From the NCBI GenBank assembly GCA_003158475.1, contig PMJR01000089.1, positions 8,964 through 47,038 of the forward strand: 38,075 nucleotides of DNA, given 5' to 3'. Positions 3,643-36,872 of this stretch are shown here, piece by piece. Each line of letters opens with the position of its first letter. Positions within the stretch are counted from its first letter, which is position 1. The position numbers were made by a program, and so were the translations under genes. This stretch comes from Ignavibacteriota bacterium (GTDB lineage Bacteria; Bacteroidota; Ignavibacteria; UBA10030; UBA6906). The notes beneath the pieces were generated by a model. That model worked only from the letters and a program-made list of their open reading frames with translations. It was not told where the DNA came from and did no database searches.

Positions 3643-5345
3643 TCTGGTTCCTTTGAATTGAGCGACCCTATGACAGTTTCCACCAGCTCCGCCCTCGGGA
3701 CGATCGTCCGTTTCCCCGTCTTCCTTTCCTTGATTTCGATATTGCCGTTGGCAAGGTTTTTTTCTCCCACGATCACCTGGAACGGCATGCCGAGAAGATC
3801 CGCGTCTTTGAACTTGAATCCGGGACTCGTATCCTTCCGGTCGTCGTAAAGAACATCCAGCCCGCTCGTGCCGAGTTCACTGTAGAGCGATTCGGCGGCA
3901 TCCGTCACCTGCGCGCTCCGGGCGCCCACGGCGATGAGATGGACGTCGAAGGGGGCGATCGCCCTGTCCCAGATGATGCCGTTCTCATCATGGTTTTGTT
4001 CGATGTGGCACGCAACGATTCTTTCGATACCGATGCCGTAGCTCCCCATGATGACGGCGGATTCTTTCCCGTTTTCGTCGAGGAATCTCGCTCCCAGTGC
4101 ATCGGCATATTTCGTGCCGAGTTTGAAGATGTGACCCAGTTCGATCCCCCGCACGATCCTCAGCCTCCCTTTGCCGTCCGGGGACGTTTCTCCTTCCTGG
4201 ACCGTGCGAAGGTCGTGGTACCCGTCGATTCTGCAGTCCCTTTCCAGGTCGATGTTCCTGATATGGTAGTCGTTTCTGTTCGCACCGCTGACAAGTCCGT
4301 TGGCCCCCTTCAGACGGCTGTCGGCGAGTATCGTGAAGCCTTTGAGCCCGACCGGGCCGATCGATCCGCCGTCGGCCCCGGTGAGTTCCCGGAGCTTCTC
4401 CCCTTCGATCGGGCGGACCTCAACACCGAGCACCGACATGAGCTTCGACTCGTTCAGCGAATCGTTCCCCATCATCAGTACAAGTACCGGCCGGTCTCCA
4501 CCCCAGTACACGACGGATTTTGCAAGCTGATTCGGGTCCACGTGGAGGAATGCCGCCAAGGCATCGATTGTCTTGACCCCGGGTGTGTGTATTTCCTTCG
4601 TCCCGGAATCGCCGGGGACGCGCACCGCGCCCGGGACGATCGAAGAGGCCACCTCCAGATTTGCGGCGTACGATCCGTCCTCCGATAGGGCGATAACATC
4701 CTCCCCGGAAGGGGACTCCATCATGAATTCCTGCGAGCCGGTCCCCCCCATCGCCCCACTCGAGGCGCCGACCACGAAAAAACGGAGCCCGCATCGCGTA
4801 AAAATCCGCCGGTACGCTTCCGCATGCAGGTCGTACGCACGGTCCAGCCCGTCCCATGAGCGATCAAGGCTGTAGCTGTCTTTCATCATGAACTGTCGAC
4901 CGCGGAGAACCCCGGAACGCGGACGGGGTTCGTTCCGGAATTTTGTCTGAATCTGGTACCAGATCTGCGGCATCTCCTTGTACGAAGAGATGTGGTTCTT
5001 GGCAAGCCAGCAGATCACTTCTTCATGTGTCGGGGCCAGGACGAGAGGACGGTTCTTTACGTGGAAGAGGGTGTCGCCGAATGCCTTGACGCGGCCGGTT
5101 TGTTCCCAGAGCTCGATCGGACTCAGCGCAGGGAGAAGAAGTTCCTGTCCGCCGATCCGGTCCATTTCCTCACGGACGATCCGAATGACCTTTCCGAAGA
5201 CCTTCTGCGCCAGAGGAAGAAACACGTAGACTCCCGCCGCCAGCGCGCGCACCATTCCGGCGCGGATCATCAGCTGGTGACTTGGAATTGTGGCGTCAGA
5301 GGGAATCTCTTTGACGGTGGGAACGAAACCCTGACTCAGGCGCAT
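3630..5345 (-). CDS. proS: Prolyl-tRNA synthetase, bacterial type
   Basis: ORF 571 aa: MRLSQGFVPTVKEIPSDATIPSHQLMIRAGMVRALAAGVYVFLPLA...; LAPTHEEVI, FRNEPRPRSGVLRGRQFMMKDSYSLD, GSYGIGIERIVA. Confidence 0.97.
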   Translation of the reverse strand: MRLSQGFVPTVKEIPSDATIPSHQLMIRAGMVRALAAGVYVFLPLAQKVFGKVIRIVREEMDRIGGQELLLPALSPIELWEQTGRVKAFGDTLFHVKNRPLVLAPTHEEVICWLAKNHISSYKEMPQIWYQIQTKFRNEPRPRSGVLRGRQFMMKDSYSLDRSWDGLDRAYDLHAEAYRRIFTRCGLRFFVVGASSGAMGGTGSQEFMMESPSGEDVIALSEDGSYAANLEVASSIVPGAVRVPGDSGTKEIHTPGVKTIDALAAFLHVDPNQLAKSVVYWGGDRPVLVLMMGNDSLNESKLMSVLGVEVRPIEGEKLRELTGADGGSIGPVGLKGFTILADSRLKGANGLVSGANRNDYHIRNIDLERDCRIDGYHDLRTVQEGETSPDGKGRLRIVRGIELGHIFKLGTKYADALGARFLDENGKESAVIMGSYGIGIERIVACHIEQNHDENGIIWDRAIAPFDVHLIAVGARSAQVTDAAESLYSELGTSGLDVLYDDRKDTSPGFKFKDADLLGMPFQVIVGEKNLANGNIEIKERKTGKRTIVPRAELVETVIGSLNSKEPEWKP

Positions 5346-8224: not shown

Positions 8225-9132
8225 AATGGAGCAACGAAGCCCGGATAGGGGTGGGTGTGTTGGCGGCAGCCGTGATATTCATCGCAGGTATCGTGTACCT
8301 CCGCGGCATCGACCTTCGCTCCAAACAATATGCCCTCAAGGTGTCCTACCGCAACGTCAACGGCCTGAAGGAGGGGGACGTGGTGACGGTCGCCGGACTC
8401 TCGATCGGACGCGTGGAATCCATGTCGATGGTGGGAAGGGCGATCGGGGTGAGCCTCTCGATTCAGACGAAAGTGCATTTACCGAAGGACTCGAAAGCGA
8501 TTCTGAAGAGCGAAACAATCATGGGGGGAAAATTCATTGAGATTGCGCCGGGGACGGACTCGCTCATGCTTGCGAACGGTGACTCCCTGGGGGGATTGTA
8601 CGAGGCGGATCTCTCCGAGCTGACGGCAACCCTTTCCCCCATCACCTCGAACGTGCTGGGGATCCTCGAGAACGTGAATTCAACGTTTGACGAGCCGACG
8701 CGGAAACGGATTCAGAAGATCGTGGCCGAGCTTGAACGCTCGTCGACCCGGCTGGAAGAGGTCATACACGCCGGGGGAAAAAGTGCCGACGCGAGTTTTG
8801 CGGACGTTGCGGTTTTTTCTCGGGACCTTGCCAGGTTCGCCCGCACACTGGACACGATTGCGGCGGCCGAACGGTTGAACATCGACACCAGCGTGACTTC
8901 GTTTGCGCAATGGTCACGCAACATGGAGCGCGTTTCGATGAAGCTCGAAACAACGACCGAGTCGCTCAACGCGGTTCTCGCAAAGATAAAGAACGGCGAA
9001 GGGACGCTGGGGAAACTCGTCCAGGATGACCGCCTCTATAATCATATGGACTCTCTGTCGATGAATCTGAATCTGCTTGTGAAGGACCTGCGGGAGAATC
9101 CCCAGCGTTACGTGAAGCTCAGCCTTTTCTAA
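8221..9132 (+). CDS. mlaD: MlaD/MCE-family substrate-binding protein
   Basis: Overlaps the previous CDS (ATGA). N-terminal TM, then MCE domain SYRNVNGLKEGDVVTVAGLSIGRVESMSM...KSETIMGGKFIEIAPG. Confidence 0.9.
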   Translation: MKWSNEARIGVGVLAAAVIFIAGIVYLRGIDLRSKQYALKVSYRNVNGLKEGDVVTVAGLSIGRVESMSMVGRAIGVSLSIQTKVHLPKDSKAILKSETIMGGKFIEIAPGTDSLMLANGDSLGGLYEADLSELTATLSPITSNVLGILENVNSTFDEPTRKRIQKIVAELERSSTRLEEVIHAGGKSADASFADVAVFSRDLARFARTLDTIAAAERLNIDTSVTSFAQWSRNMERVSMKLETTTESLNAVLAKIKNGEGTLGKLVQDDRLYNHMDSLSMNLNLLVKDLRENPQRYVKLSLF

Positions 9133-9232
9133 AGGTGCATTCCATGACCGGACTTCCAAAGCGGACGCTCGCCCGGACCGGGCTCCTTGAGAAAGCTGTA
9201 AAGCGCGCGCGCGATTCCGCGAACGCGTAAAC

Positions 9233-9832
9233 TCAACCCCTCCTCCTCCGGTACGCGCGCACTCCCCAATAGACCAGCACGCCCGTCAGTGTCGTCGCCA
9301 GAATCCAGAGTGCGGCATTCGTCATCGCTTCGGGAAACGCCCGCCACTGCTCACCGAGGTAATAGCCCGCGGAGATGAAGATCCCGGTCCACAAGAGCGC
9401 ACCGGCGTACGCAAAAAGTGCGAACGTCCCGTATTCGAGGCCAGAGCTCCCGGCAACGATCGCGATCCCATGACGCACACCCGGCACGAAATACCCTATC
9501 GTCAGCGACCAGTGTCCCCATCGTTTGAACCACAAATGCAGGCGATCCACTGTTCCAGGTCCGATGTGCAGCCGCGCTCCGAATCTGTGCAGGACACGCG
9601 ACCCCCCTATCCTGCCGATGCAGTAGCTTATTGTTATGCCGAACACAGTCCCCAGGAGAGCCGATATGCAGCTCGGCAGGAGATGAAGCGTCCCGTTGAA
9701 AATAAGGTATCCTGTGAGCGCGAGGAGCGTCTCATCCGGTACGGGAAGGCCCACAATCCCTAGCATCAGGAGGAAAAAAATCGCAGGATACCCGTAGTTT
9801 GCGATCCATACCTGGAACTCATGTATTGGCAT
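9233..9832 (-). CDS. DedA/SNARE-associated (VTT) family membrane protein
   Basis: YPAIFFLLMLGIVGLPVPDETLLALTGYLIFNG... and WGHWSLTIGYFVPGVRHGIAIVAGSSGL. Confidence 0.88.
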   Translation of the reverse strand: MPIHEFQVWIANYGYPAIFFLLMLGIVGLPVPDETLLALTGYLIFNGTLHLLPSCISALLGTVFGITISYCIGRIGGSRVLHRFGARLHIGPGTVDRLHLWFKRWGHWSLTIGYFVPGVRHGIAIVAGSSGLEYGTFALFAYAGALLWTGIFISAGYYLGEQWRAFPEAMTNAALWILATTLTGVLVYWGVRAYRRRRG

Positions 9833-32885: not shown

Positions 32886-33911
32886 CTAGGCGCGTGCGCG
32901 CGCGCTCGCTATGCCAAGCCTCTTGAGCTTATACCGGAACGTTTGTTCTGTCATTCCGAGAAATGCGGCAGCCTTTGATTGGTTGAAGCCGAACTTCTCA
33001 AGAGAGCGTTCGATGATCCCCTTTTCTATGACATCCAGAGATTTGTCGAGTACAAACTCCTGGCCTGCCATGATATTGTTGATCATCTTCACGACTTCTG
33101 TCTTCTCGTCAACCAACTCCGGCGGAAGCATGAACCGGCCATCGTTGGAGAAGAGGACGCACTTGTCCACCACTGCCTTCAGTTCGCGAATATTCTCGCG
33201 CCAGGGTTGACGCACAAGGACATCGATTGCGTTGATGTCGATAACGAGGTCCGCCAGGCCGAGTTCCCTGCAGATATCGCCCGCAAAATGCTTCACGAGG
33301 AGGGGAATGTCCTCGGGCCGCATACGTAGCGGAGCAACCTCGATCTTCTCGAATTCAAGGATCTTCCCGTACAGATCTTCCAGAAGCTTTCGCTTCTCGA
33401 CGAGTTCGGCAGGTTCTGCCTTCATCGAAACGATCAGGCGAATGTCGACAGGCTCGCCTGTCTCCCCGCCGATTCGCCGGGTCTTCCGCTCGTTCATGAA
33501 GTTCAATATCTTCATCTGATTGCGGAAGCTCGCCTCTTCGATTTCCTCGATGAGAACTGTGCCGCCATTTGCCAGCTCAAAAAGCCCGCGCTTCGAAGTG
33601 TACGGAAGTCCCTCAACACCTCTGTCAAAACCGAACAAGACCGATTCGAGCTCCTTGTCATCAAGAACGGAAAGATTGATGGACATGAAGGGCTGCTCGT
33701 TGAGGCCCGTCTTGCTCTGGAAGTAAATGTTCTTCGCGATCGCGCCCTTCCCGACGCCGGCTTCACCGATTATCACGACGTCCTTGCGCGTCTTCGCAAG
33801 ACGGCCAATCTGCTTGATCAGCTGCTCGACAGACTTGCTTTTGCCAACGATCGGATAGTCGTTTGAGGAGCCCGCCTTCTTCTCCTCAGCCTGCTGCGTC
33901 TTGTGTTCCAT
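32886..33911 (-). CDS. NtrC-like AAA+ / Fis-HTH regulator without receiver domain and with degenerate sigma54-activator motifs
   Basis: Walker A GEAGVGKGAIAKNIY; ELESVLFGFDRGVEGLPYTSKRGLFELANGGTVLIEEIEEASF; PWRENIRELKAVVDKCV; Fis HTH IEKGIIERSLEKFGFNQSKAAAFLGMTEQTFRYKLKRLGI. GAFTGA absent. Confidence 0.85.
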   Translation of the reverse strand: MEHKTQQAEEKKAGSSNDYPIVGKSKSVEQLIKQIGRLAKTRKDVVIIGEAGVGKGAIAKNIYFQSKTGLNEQPFMSINLSVLDDKELESVLFGFDRGVEGLPYTSKRGLFELANGGTVLIEEIEEASFRNQMKILNFMNERKTRRIGGETGEPVDIRLIVSMKAEPAELVEKRKLLEDLYGKILEFEKIEVAPLRMRPEDIPLLVKHFAGDICRELGLADLVIDINAIDVLVRQPWRENIRELKAVVDKCVLFSNDGRFMLPPELVDEKTEVVKMINNIMAGQEFVLDKSLDVIEKGIIERSLEKFGFNQSKAAAFLGMTEQTFRYKLKRLGIASARARA

Positions 33912-33967: not shown

Positions 33968-35116
33968 TTACTGTCTCCGATTCGGCGAAACAAACATCCT
34001 GCCCAGAATCAGTTTACGATTGAAAAACTTCTCGACGACAAGGTTGTCAAGCGAATCCCTCCAGCGCGTGATTGTAGAGGGACGGATAGCCAGTTCTTGC
34101 TCGTAGAACTCTCCTTTGACCGACGTAATGAATCTCAAGCGCATTGAGAAGGCCCCAGCAAGGAGCGCCAAGACTACGTTCGAGACGTTGAGACCGACCG
34201 TCCAGATAGAGCTTGATGCTGACCATTCAACTTCTTTCATCGCGGTCCAAAGATGGAGCGCCTCCAGACTGCAAAAGACCAGCAAGAGAAACATTATCTT
34301 CTCAATGTAAGCCCCTTGTGGGGGGTCCTTCATGTAGAGATACCCGAAAAACAAAAGTATGAACCCGATAGATACGACAGCCATTCGCAAGGCATCCGAG
34401 TAGAGTGGCTTAAATACAAGCACGGGCCAGTTGTCTGGTAGATACGCGTAAAGAGCGTTTGCTCTCACCAGTTTCTCTTCTGGGAACAAGAGGCCTGTCT
34501 TGATCCCGTCTTTCCACGAATACATCTCGGTGATATCGGCGAGTGTCTCCGGAGTTGGAGCCTGGCCGACTTCGTTTACCCATTCGTCATAGCTAGTAGC
34601 AAGTGTCTTGTAATCTAAGACATCGGCTGTATGGTGGAGGTATTTTGGATCATCAAAATACGGGGCGTAGTAAAATCCGAAAAACGTCAACGCTATTCCG
34701 ATACTAGCAGCGTATTTCTGATAAGTGTGGAAGTCCCGAAACAGGACATCCACAGTCAAATAGATGATAGCGAAGGCTATGAACAAGAAGTAAGCCCCGA
34801 AGAAAATATATTCGCCAAGGAAGAATCTGAGAAATGGTTGGTTAGAGAAAAACTCTCCTCCCTTGCCGACAAATGGATAGAGGTGATCCAAGAAAGAAAA
34901 TGCGAAAAGGACCGCGAAATTCACGAAGATAAATTTGTTCTTACGAATTGGTTCATGACGAACTATGTAAACACTAATGACAAACAGGAGGGCCTGTATT
35001 GAATAACTTAGAAACCCGGGTAATGAGACTCGATCATGCTGCAAGCACAGAAGCGTTGCAGCAAATAGCGAGAGGATGGCCAGCCACCAATAGAATACCT
35101 TTTTTGATAGTCTCAT
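33968..35116 (-). CDS. Uncharacterised polytopic membrane protein (about 8 TM segments, ~85-aa predicted external loop, basic cytoplasmic C-terminus)
   Basis: ORF 382 aa; hydrophobic segments such as VFYWWLAILSLFAATLLCL and FFLGEYIFFGAYFLFIAFAIIYLTVDVLF; C-terminal MRLRFITSVKGEFYEQELAIRPSTITRWRDSLDNLVVEKFFNRK; promoter-like sequence immediately upstream. Confidence 0.75.
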   Translation of the reverse strand: MRLSKKVFYWWLAILSLFAATLLCLQHDRVSLPGFLSYSIQALLFVISVYIVRHEPIRKNKFIFVNFAVLFAFSFLDHLYPFVGKGGEFFSNQPFLRFFLGEYIFFGAYFLFIAFAIIYLTVDVLFRDFHTYQKYAASIGIALTFFGFYYAPYFDDPKYLHHTADVLDYKTLATSYDEWVNEVGQAPTPETLADITEMYSWKDGIKTGLLFPEEKLVRANALYAYLPDNWPVLVFKPLYSDALRMAVVSIGFILLFFGYLYMKDPPQGAYIEKIMFLLLVFCSLEALHLWTAMKEVEWSASSSIWTVGLNVSNVVLALLAGAFSMRLRFITSVKGEFYEQELAIRPSTITRWRDSLDNLVVEKFFNRKLILGRMFVSPNRRQ

Positions 35117-35152: not shown

Positions 35153-35181
35153 AATATATACAGCAGGGGCAGCGAAGTCAA
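35153..35181 (-). promoter_or_regulatory. Sigma70-like promoter TTGACT-N17-TATATT for the membrane-protein/regulator gene pair
   Basis: Minus strand TTGACT (35181-35176), 17-nt spacer, TATATT (35158-35153), ~37 nt upstream of the ATG. Confidence 0.6.
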
Positions 35182-35275: not shown

Positions 35276-35304
35276 TTGACATTAGTTCACCACTTGAGTA
35301 CATT
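35276..35304 (+). promoter_or_regulatory. Sigma70-like promoter TTGACA-N17-TACATT directed toward the repeat-peptide gene
   Basis: ttgaca 35276-35281, 17-nt spacer, tacatt 35299-35304. Confidence 0.55.
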
Positions 35305-35560
35305 TTTAGCGAAATCAGTACCGAATCCGCGAAATCCGATCTTTGAGATCTAGAGCCTACAGGGGAAGACTTGAAAGGGATGAACAGGTTCGGCAAGCAA
35401 CGTCGGCCGAACGGATGAGAGAACCAGAACAACGAGTTTGTCAGTAGCCCTGAATTGTTTAGGAAGGCCTGCTTCGAGTTTGGGTGAGAAGCCAAAACCA
35501 GAACTGACCCAGACATTCTCAGAAATCTAATTGAATCACACTCTACCAGGAGAGAAGAAC

Positions 35561-35722
35561 ATGTCACTCATTGCGAAGCGAATCCGCTCACTTGTGGTAA
35601 CCGTCATTGCGATCGCAGTTGCCAACATCGCAATTTCCTACGCGAGTGGCATGCCTATTATCCCCGACTCCCCGAAGCCCAAGAGCGGGATGCCGATTAT
35701 TCCGGATTCCCCCAAGCCATAA
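35561..35722 (+). CDS. 53-aa predicted exported peptide precursor: signal-peptide-like N-terminus plus two identical 12-aa repeats
   Basis: MSLIAKRIRSLVVTVIAIAVANIAISYA|SGMPIIPDSPKP-K-SGMPIIPDSPKP*; RBS-like aggagag 5' of the ATG; repeats identical in protein but synonymously diverged in DNA; terminator downstream. Confidence 0.8.
   Translation: MSLIAKRIRSLVVTVIAIAVANIAISYASGMPIIPDSPKPKSGMPIIPDSPKP
35645..35719 (+). repeat. Two tandem 36-nt in-frame repeats (35645-35680 and 35684-35719) separated by one Lys codon
   Basis: Both encode SGMPIIPDSPKP; AGTGGCATGCCTATTATCCCCGACTCCCCGAAGCCC vs AGCGGGATGCCGATTATTCCGGATTCCCCCAAGCCA. Confidence 0.95.
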
Positions 35723-35775: not shown

Positions 35776-35815
35776 GACATGCTCACGGTTGATGGCCGTG
35801 AGCATGTCCTTTTTT
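35776..35815 (+). terminator. Strong intrinsic terminator after the peptide gene
   Basis: gacatgctcacgg-ttgatgg-ccgtgagcatgtc-ctttttt: perfect 13-bp stem, 7-nt loop, T-tract. Confidence 0.9.
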
Positions 35816-35936: not shown

Positions 35937-36872
35937 ATGAAATCACGGAATCTGGCTCTGCATGTTGGGTTGGTTCTGCTCACGTTTATCACTGTGACAT
36001 TTGCGGGGGTCCAGTGGCTAAATAAAGATCCATTCGAACTGGGATCCTTCTCATTGGGTTTCACATACGGCGTGCTCGTAATCGCATTCCTTGCTGCACA
36101 TGAAATGGGGCATTATTTTGCGGCTCGTATTCACGGCGTTGAAACAACACTACCTTACTTCATTCCTTTCCCTCCGTTCTTCGGATTCATGCCGTTTGGA
36201 ACCCTCGGCGCAGTAATCCGGATCCGATCGGAGCTCCGAGATAGGAAGACCCTCTTTGACGTAGGATCAGCTGGTCCAATATCCGGATTCATCGTCTGCG
36301 TCTTCATATTAATTTGGGGGATGACTCACCTTCCCCCGATTGAATACCTTTACAATGTGCATCCCGAATACAGGAATTTGGCACAACTTCCTACCGAAGG
36401 GCTAACCTTTGGAAAACCCTTGCTTTACAAGCTTGTTGAATTGTTGGTAGCTCCTTCGTCTGCCTTTCTGCCGCCCATGAATGAAGTGTATCACTATCCC
36501 TTCTTGTGTGTCGGATGGTTTGGAGCGTTTGTAACTGCGCTGAACCTGCTACCAGTTGGACAACTTGATGGGGGGCACATCGCCTATGCGATGTTCGGTT
36601 CGCGTTCACACCTGCTCGCGAGGGTTGTGCTCGTTGTGCTAATGCTTTTGGGAACGGCCGGGATACTCCCCTTGCTGGGATTTCAATTCGCGTATGGGTG
36701 GGCAGGTTGGCTATTGTGGAGTGTGGTACTCGGCCTCTTAATGAGGAACAAGCGTTTCAGACATCCTCCACTAGAGGATATTCAAGAACTTGGTGTGGTT
36801 CGAGAATGGATTGGTTGGATTTGCGCTATCGTCTTCATCCTTACCTTCGTGGTTGTACCCATCGCACCATGA
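35937..36872 (+). CDS. M50 family site-2-protease-like intramembrane metalloprotease
   Basis: LAAHEMGHYFAARIHG (HExxH) and ALNLLPVGQLDGGHIAYAMFG (NxxPxxxLDGG), multiple TM segments; start at ATG 35937. Confidence 0.92.
   Translation: MKSRNLALHVGLVLLTFITVTFAGVQWLNKDPFELGSFSLGFTYGVLVIAFLAAHEMGHYFAARIHGVETTLPYFIPFPPFFGFMPFGTLGAVIRIRSELRDRKTLFDVGSAGPISGFIVCVFILIWGMTHLPPIEYLYNVHPEYRNLAQLPTEGLTFGKPLLYKLVELLVAPSSAFLPPMNEVYHYPFLCVGWFGAFVTALNLLPVGQLDGGHIAYAMFGSRSHLLARVVLVVLMLLGTAGILPLLGFQFAYGWAGWLLWSVVLGLLMRNKRFRHPPLEDIQELGVVREWIGWICAIVFILTFVVVPIAP

Follow-up and report, generated by a model that had tools for sequence, protein, structure and literature searches.

In yeast, the number of repeats in the alpha-factor precursor varies and sets the output (PMC5850478). 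In Firmicutes, M50 (site-2) proteases take part in maturing short peptide pheromones (PMC10202637); the Eep/RseP-dependent pheromones cAD1, cCF10 and SHP usually derive either from part of the signal peptide of a lipoprotein or from a single-copy short ORF, and they are sensed inside the cell or by plasmid regulators (PMC10202637). Peptide signalling in the mostly uncultured Gram-negative bacteria studied here is almost unknown.

Here we analyse a window of 38,075 nucleotides from an Ignavibacteriota bacterium (assembly GCA_003158475.1, contig PMJR01000089.1), which contains a cassette whose organisation suggests an undescribed peptide-signalling system of bacteria, constructed in the manner of the yeast mating pheromone. 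The reading that we favour, and consider fairly probable, is that a 53-residue ORF in the window is a multi-copy precursor of a secreted linear 12-residue signal, which would be processed by an M50 protease, sensed by a membrane protein (A) and relayed by a regulator (B). The features of the precursor gene are the following.

35548 to 35554, forward strand: Shine-Dalgarno-like AGGAGAG, seen in the sequence
35561 to 35722, forward strand: peptide precursor, 53 residues plus stop, from translation and homologs in relatives
35561 to 35644, forward strand: leader MSLIAKRIRSLVVTVIAIAVANIAISYA of the precursor, with Asn22 at the position that is invariant in the family leaders
35645 to 35680, forward strand: unit 1, SGMPIIPDSPKP, from translation and comparison of arrays
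35681 to 35683, forward strand: Lys linker between the units, from translation
35684 to 35719, forward strand: unit 2, SGMPIIPDSPKP, with 8 silent base differences from unit 1

The ORF translates to MSLIAKRIRSLVVTVIAIAVANIAISYASGMPIIPDSPKPKSGMPIIPDSPKP followed by the stop codon, i.e., the two identical 12-residue repeats and the ribosome-binding-like site are present exactly as the original prediction had described them. The differences between the two units, 8 out of 36 bases, are all synonymous (P ~8e-6 if changes were random over sites). The repeat is therefore neither a chance event nor a recent copy; both units are held to the same amino acids, and the ORF is a real gene. In its own genome, SGMPIIPDSPKP is encoded exactly only by units 1 and 2 of the window, and one further site with three mismatches to the unit does not encode it.

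Relatives of the window genome were searched with tblastn and then with a profile (E < 1e-4). The tblastn homologs come from the same genus, the same family and other families of the order, and with the profile, members of the precursor family are found in 41 of the 98 genomes of the order. These presence counts are probably underestimates, as contigs end inside A or at the precursor in L127 (G001), L148 (G002), L149 (G044) and L147 (G074). Loss of the ORF from close relatives that keep the neighbourhood, which would speak against the original prediction, is not seen in the two congeneric genomes: G002 has four copies of SGIPILPDSPKP, and in G001 the contig stops at the ribosome-binding site of the precursor, with the adjoining A and B genes intact. 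A named-genome scan with the single precursor as query gives no match, and against Pfam, NCBIfam and PADLOC the precursor has only weak, unrelated matches; no family matches it, in agreement with the original prediction, which did not recognise the peptide as a known pheromone, bacteriocin or RiPP core. When 18 weak matches elsewhere in the relatives were read in frame, only one was a real precursor, the phage copy discussed below.

The members share one design: a basic start, a hydrophobic stretch containing an Asn, an AISxA-like end, a variable spacer and then the copies of the unit, with the stop codon usually right after the last unit. All 43 family leaders carry the Asn in the hydrophobic segment. 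By virtue of its shape and this conservation, the leader supports the earlier claim of an exported precursor. The unit is 10–15 residues long and proline-rich, with near-identical copies, e.g., SGxxxxPDSP[KR]P, and mostly has PxP[KR]P at the end. The units SGMPIIPDSPKP, SGIPILPDSPKP, SGVMNIPDPPRP, STVPLLPDSPRP, AGIPTLPDSPRP and SGTPNNPDSPRP are typical of the family. Further removed in sequence are SGGPIAPSDIPRP, present in nine copies, AADAVIFQPAPRP, in five, and TLASGTTSNPLPPPP, in seven. Units differ between genera: 19 distinct 12-mers agree, on average, at 6.1 of their 12 positions, and among them P10 and P12 never vary, P7 is found in 17 and D8 in 13. The copy number is 2–9 in 40 arrays and 1 in outgroup members. 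A copy number ranging from 1 to 9 among relatives, with a unit that stays constant within a genome, is what the predicted multi-copy design calls for. Precursors with a single unit are encoded by three genomes that belong to another family of the class (ASGNTMLPDSPHP, ASGNSMLPDSPDP and ASGNTMFPDAPHP), where an unrelated acidic tail follows the unit; thus, the core motif is the conserved part and the repetition is variable. Two tandem precursor genes are present in L073 (G068, ~8790–9290) and in L065 (G041, 36–629), and the first tandem gene of G068 mixes the units SGPTAPPPPIP and SGPTAPEPPRP, as if a new unit type were spreading.

Neighbouring copies in the 40 arrays differ by a total of 553 synonymous and 24 non-synonymous changes (pS 0.50, pN 0.008, pN/pS 0.017), so purifying selection acts on each copy. 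Within a genome the copies are well diverged at the DNA level and nearly identical as protein; from one genus to another the unit changes. Such a pattern would be expected of copies that all have to fit one and the same partner.

One version of the precursor is carried by a phage. G012:C35 (L089), a 6579-bp contig binned with the relative G012, encodes on its minus strand (~4403–4522) the ORF MKRLLVLLAIVFAVNFLIDCALASGVMNIPDPPRPGAVK, which has a single unit and a leader that keeps the Asn. The host array of G012 consists of four copies of SGVMNIPDPPRP, and the phage copy has the identical 12-mer in partly different codons. The phage nature of the contig is indicated by an endolysin, which has more than 100 relatives in IMG/VR and is 44% identical to the endolysin of a Caudoviricetes record, and by weak matches to structural proteins. 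The precursor ORF is flanked by genes in the same orientation; its stop codon overlaps the start codon of the following phage gene, to which it is translationally coupled. Among the matches listed in IMG/VR there are no further phage copies, and this is the one case found. The sequences suggest that the phage makes the signal of its host, and a phage copy with one host-identical unit supports the single unit as the functional entity.

How the units would be freed from the chain is where the original prediction, although largely right about a peptide precursor, does not extend to the whole family. It placed the cleavage exactly at repeat 1; in many relatives, however, 3 to ~40 residues separate the leader from the first unit, so that a second trimming step would be needed. 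It also had proteolysis at the Lys linker. In most members a K or R does precede the unit, but in some relatives the linker is D, AMHD, TLQD or ETF.

The linkers without a basic residue, found in several arrays, are one reason to consider that the repeats are never released. The leader would then stay uncleaved as an anchor, and within that cell the repeats would make multivalent contacts with A or with some other partner in the envelope, as a sensor of the envelope or of secretion, with the M50 protease turning the anchor over. A leader of this form can serve as a type II anchor, it is more conserved in sequence than a signal peptide requires, and repeats fit multivalent binding. However, the single-copy versions and the one-copy phage version show that multivalency is not required. 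Most linkers do have a basic residue before each unit, and in most leaders an AxA or SxA around leader position +6 fits signal peptidase I. Given these three points we regard such a tethered ligand as unlikely, and prefer a released signal peptide.

Neighbour genes were clustered around 40 loci. Three neighbours are constant, each in 36–37 of the 40 loci and in about 25 genera: the M50 protease gene directly downstream on the same strand, A divergently upstream, and B behind A. In the window, the rest of the cassette is laid out as follows.

32886 to 33911, reverse strand: protein B, AAA+ (PF00158-type) and Fis HTH regulator, from Pfam domains and alignment
33968 to 35116, reverse strand: protein A, eight-helix (8-TM) membrane protein and candidate receptor, from homologs, model, topology and conservation
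35153 to 35181, reverse strand: candidate sigma-70-type A-B promoter, TTGACT-17-TATATT, a consensus match only
35276 to 35304, forward strand: candidate sigma-70-type precursor promoter, TTGACA-17-TACATT, a consensus match only
35776 to 35808, forward strand: intrinsic terminator between the precursor and the M50 gene, a hairpin-plus-T site
35937 to 36872, forward strand: M50 intramembrane (site-2-type) protease, PF02163 with E 1.6e-19, conserved over 36 loci

The precursor and A occur together. Among the 98 genomes of the order, 40 have both, 1 has the precursor alone, 5 have A alone and 52 have neither (Fisher P = 9e-21, a value that ignores the kinship of the genomes). The genome with the precursor alone is explained by a contig edge, and those with A alone by contig edges or paralogs. 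Two other sets of genes lie close by. In the window a CHAT-domain protease gene (PF12770, 36909–38066, reverse strand) adjoins the cassette and is not among the conserved neighbours. Downstream of M50 and in the same direction, genes of the PorV/PorQ family (related to type 9 secretion), of BNR-repeat proteins and of thioredoxin-like proteins are found in L024:3500-8394, with equivalents in ~19 genera; they are possibly co-regulated with the cassette, or just old neighbours.

The nature of the constant partners also bears on a different function for the peptide. The units are proline-rich and end in PRP, they diverge at the species level, and multi-copy precursors are also known for antimicrobial peptides; the product could thus be a bacteriocin-like, proline-rich antimicrobial made as a polyprotein. 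Known proline-rich antimicrobial peptides are strongly cationic, whereas the units here are about neutral. Among the neighbours of the 40 loci there is no constant immunity or export gene, the constant partners being instead a membrane protein, a DNA-binding regulator and the M50 protease, and a phage would gain little from carrying an antimicrobial. We therefore find this reading very unlikely, and keep to a signal.

The catalytic motifs of the M50 protease are intact, HEMGH and QLDGGH in the window and HExGH and LDGGH in the family. A helix-weakening Asn is what the substrate of an intramembrane protease would need. Hairpin-plus-T sites similar to the terminator of the window follow the precursor in 29 of 36 loci (simple scan), and the precursor mRNA should therefore exceed the M50 mRNA. 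The same arrangement, in which a short ORF with a Sec-type leader, most often ending in PRP-stop, precedes an intrinsic terminator and then the M50 gene, is also that of an arrest peptide or attenuator, where stalling in the style of SecM or MifM on a signal-bearing, proline-rich ORF would control read-through of the terminator into M50. But one arrest motif would suffice, whereas the constraint is equal on all copies, and the single-copy members and a few others have further residues after the last unit. Further, the phage copy lacks the terminator-plus-M50 context, and the tie to A and B would be left unexplained. We give translational arrest very little credence, far less than the secreted signal.

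Among the genomes sampled, protein A, which has about 380 residues in its family, occurs only in this order and in one other family of the class. A named-genome scan with A as query returns 36 loci, the hosts being Ignavibacteriae/Bacteroidota metagenome-assembled genomes. A has no match and no kinase domain in Pfam and NCBIfam, no PADLOC model covers it, and a sequence search of the PDB gives no hit. The AlphaFold2 model (pLDDT 87.7, pTM 0.83) has eight transmembrane helices; from the charge bias both ends are predicted to be inside, with residues 154–237 forming an extracytoplasmic domain. A Foldseek search with the model gives no significant match (best E 0.063, TM-score 0.32). The best hits are GPCR bundles, which have E >= 0.06 and TM-scores of ~0.3 and are treated as chance. 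Conservation is highest on the cytoplasmic face, in the loop FFGYQYxKDPPQGAY (0.36 bits) and the C-terminal tail (1.18 bits); the outer parts are less conserved, at about 2.1 bits.

Wherever A is encoded, B accompanies it, and this holds for the paralogs too. Paralogous A-B pairs without M50 or repeat precursor are found in L128–L138 and L145 (e.g., in G046, G077, G078, G025 and G043), some of them with two tandem A genes; no paralogous locus has a repeat precursor, and in the two loci inspected there is no consistent partner. Since the pairs persist without M50 and precursor, A and B are probably one functional unit.

A membrane protein of this kind might also be the exporter or a processing partner of the peptide and not its receptor, with B regulating only the locus. 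The eight-helix bundle has no recognisable signalling domain, and the co-occurrence with the precursor would be equally strong for an exporter. Further, a Mantel test for covariation of the peptide with the outside part of A beyond phylogeny gives no clear signal either way (partial r 0.12, P 0.07). Against an exporter stand the constant linkage of A to a DNA-binding regulator and the A-B pairs that lack precursor and M50, as well as the strongest conservation being on the cytoplasmic face; Sec export, moreover, needs no dedicated exporter. To us this makes an exporter role for A improbable, and A as the candidate receptor is the assignment that we retain.

Protein B consists of AAA+, lid and HTH domains only, without a receiver or other sensory domain. 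As A has no kinase domain and B has no receiver, the pair does not belong to the two-component systems. In B the GAFTGA region is replaced by LFGFDRGVEGLPYT, and it is not conserved as GAFTGA in 36 proteins. Although rpoN is present, no consistent -24/-12 sites are found upstream of the precursor or A, and on both grounds we reject B as a sigma-54 activator (bEBP). The divergent regions instead hold TTGACA-17-TATATT-like promoters, with CTTGACA in 26 of 36 regions (in shuffles the maximum for any 7-mer is 15); from the candidate precursor promoter of the window the 5' leader would be about 250 nt. TyrR, DhaR and HupR have a defective GAFTGA and act with sigma-70 (PMC3162934), and sigma-70-type divergent promoters agree with a B protein that lacks GAFTGA. 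In L080, L077, L081 and L078, all of the same genus, the -10 box of the A-B promoter is closely followed by a dyad TTCGT-N8-ACGAA, a possible operator for B. As a general operator of B it is rejected, being confined to one genus and one relative. A role of B in anti-phage defence was likewise discarded, as its only matches are AAA/Fis matches to RtcR-type models, whose CARF domain B does not have.

We suggest the following mechanism. The precursor would enter the inner membrane via Sec, its basic N-terminus staying in the cytoplasm and its repeats facing outwards. The repeat chain could then be freed by signal peptidase I, by the neighbouring M50 protease or by both, with the Asn helix as the target, and periplasmic or extracellular proteases would cut it into identical units, in most species at the basic linker; the K-P and R-P bonds inside the unit would, we infer, resist trypsin-like enzymes. 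From association, topology and conservation, A would sense the peptide from outside, candidate peptides being SGMPIIPDSPKP and SGMPIIPDSPKPK, and signal to B through its conserved cytoplasmic loop and tail. B may in turn act on sigma-70-type promoters, the cassette's own probably among them. More copies would give more peptide per mRNA, and the terminator would keep the precursor in excess over the M50 protease.

The cassette offers a full set of candidate parts, i.e., ligand, protease, receptor and regulator, together with dozens of natural ligand sequences. As the units are short and linear, the receptor question is directly testable with synthetic peptides. If true, the proposal would give bacteria their own counterpart of the multi-copy pheromone precursors, define a family of receptors with no known fold, and show a phage that carries the exact signal of its host. 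The broader idea is of a new class of cell-cell signalling in Ignavibacteria, where a polyprotein linear pheromone with species-specific units and a dedicated M50 protease would act on an orphan 8-TM receptor that directly controls an AAA+/Fis protein, with at least one phage carrying the host's signal peptide; for this the balance appears to us to be even.

None of the papers searched describes such a system, and among its closest relatives in design are the yeast MFalpha1 and the fungal KEX2-processed repeat proteins (PMC5850478, PMC9769878). As in these, several near-identical short linear units with short linkers are made in one exported polyprotein, and the copy number varies between relatives. 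However, the cassette is bacterial, has no sequence relationship to them and no KEX2 site rule, and in place of a GPCR pathway it has, as neighbours, an M50 protease of its own and a membrane protein of an unrelated kind.

With the Eep/RseP-dependent pheromones (PMC10202637) it shares a short linear peptide and an M50 protease as the likely maturation enzyme, here with intact HExxH and LDG motifs and linked to the precursor. The peptide is, however, neither within the signal peptide nor a single short ORF, but lies outside the leader in repeats, with the M50 gene adjacent. The cassette would thus work like the Eep type without being a member of it.

The phage copy resembles the agr genes of phage phiCDHM1 and the arbitrium peptides (PMC7790227) in being a phage-carried homolog of a bacterial peptide-signal gene; here it is the peptide alone, as one host-identical unit, and no receptor gene is seen on the 6.6-kb contig. 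B resembles TyrR and DhaR (PMC3162934) in combining AAA+ and a Fis-type HTH without a usable GAFTGA loop, but it lacks a sensory domain at its N-terminus and is linked with a polytopic membrane protein. By function the cassette would thus belong to a known kind, peptide signalling. Its parts are what is new: a linear precursor with several copies, found in a Gram-negative group, an M50 protease as dedicated neighbour, a candidate receptor that has no known fold, and a regulator that combines AAA+ and Fis domains but has no receiver.
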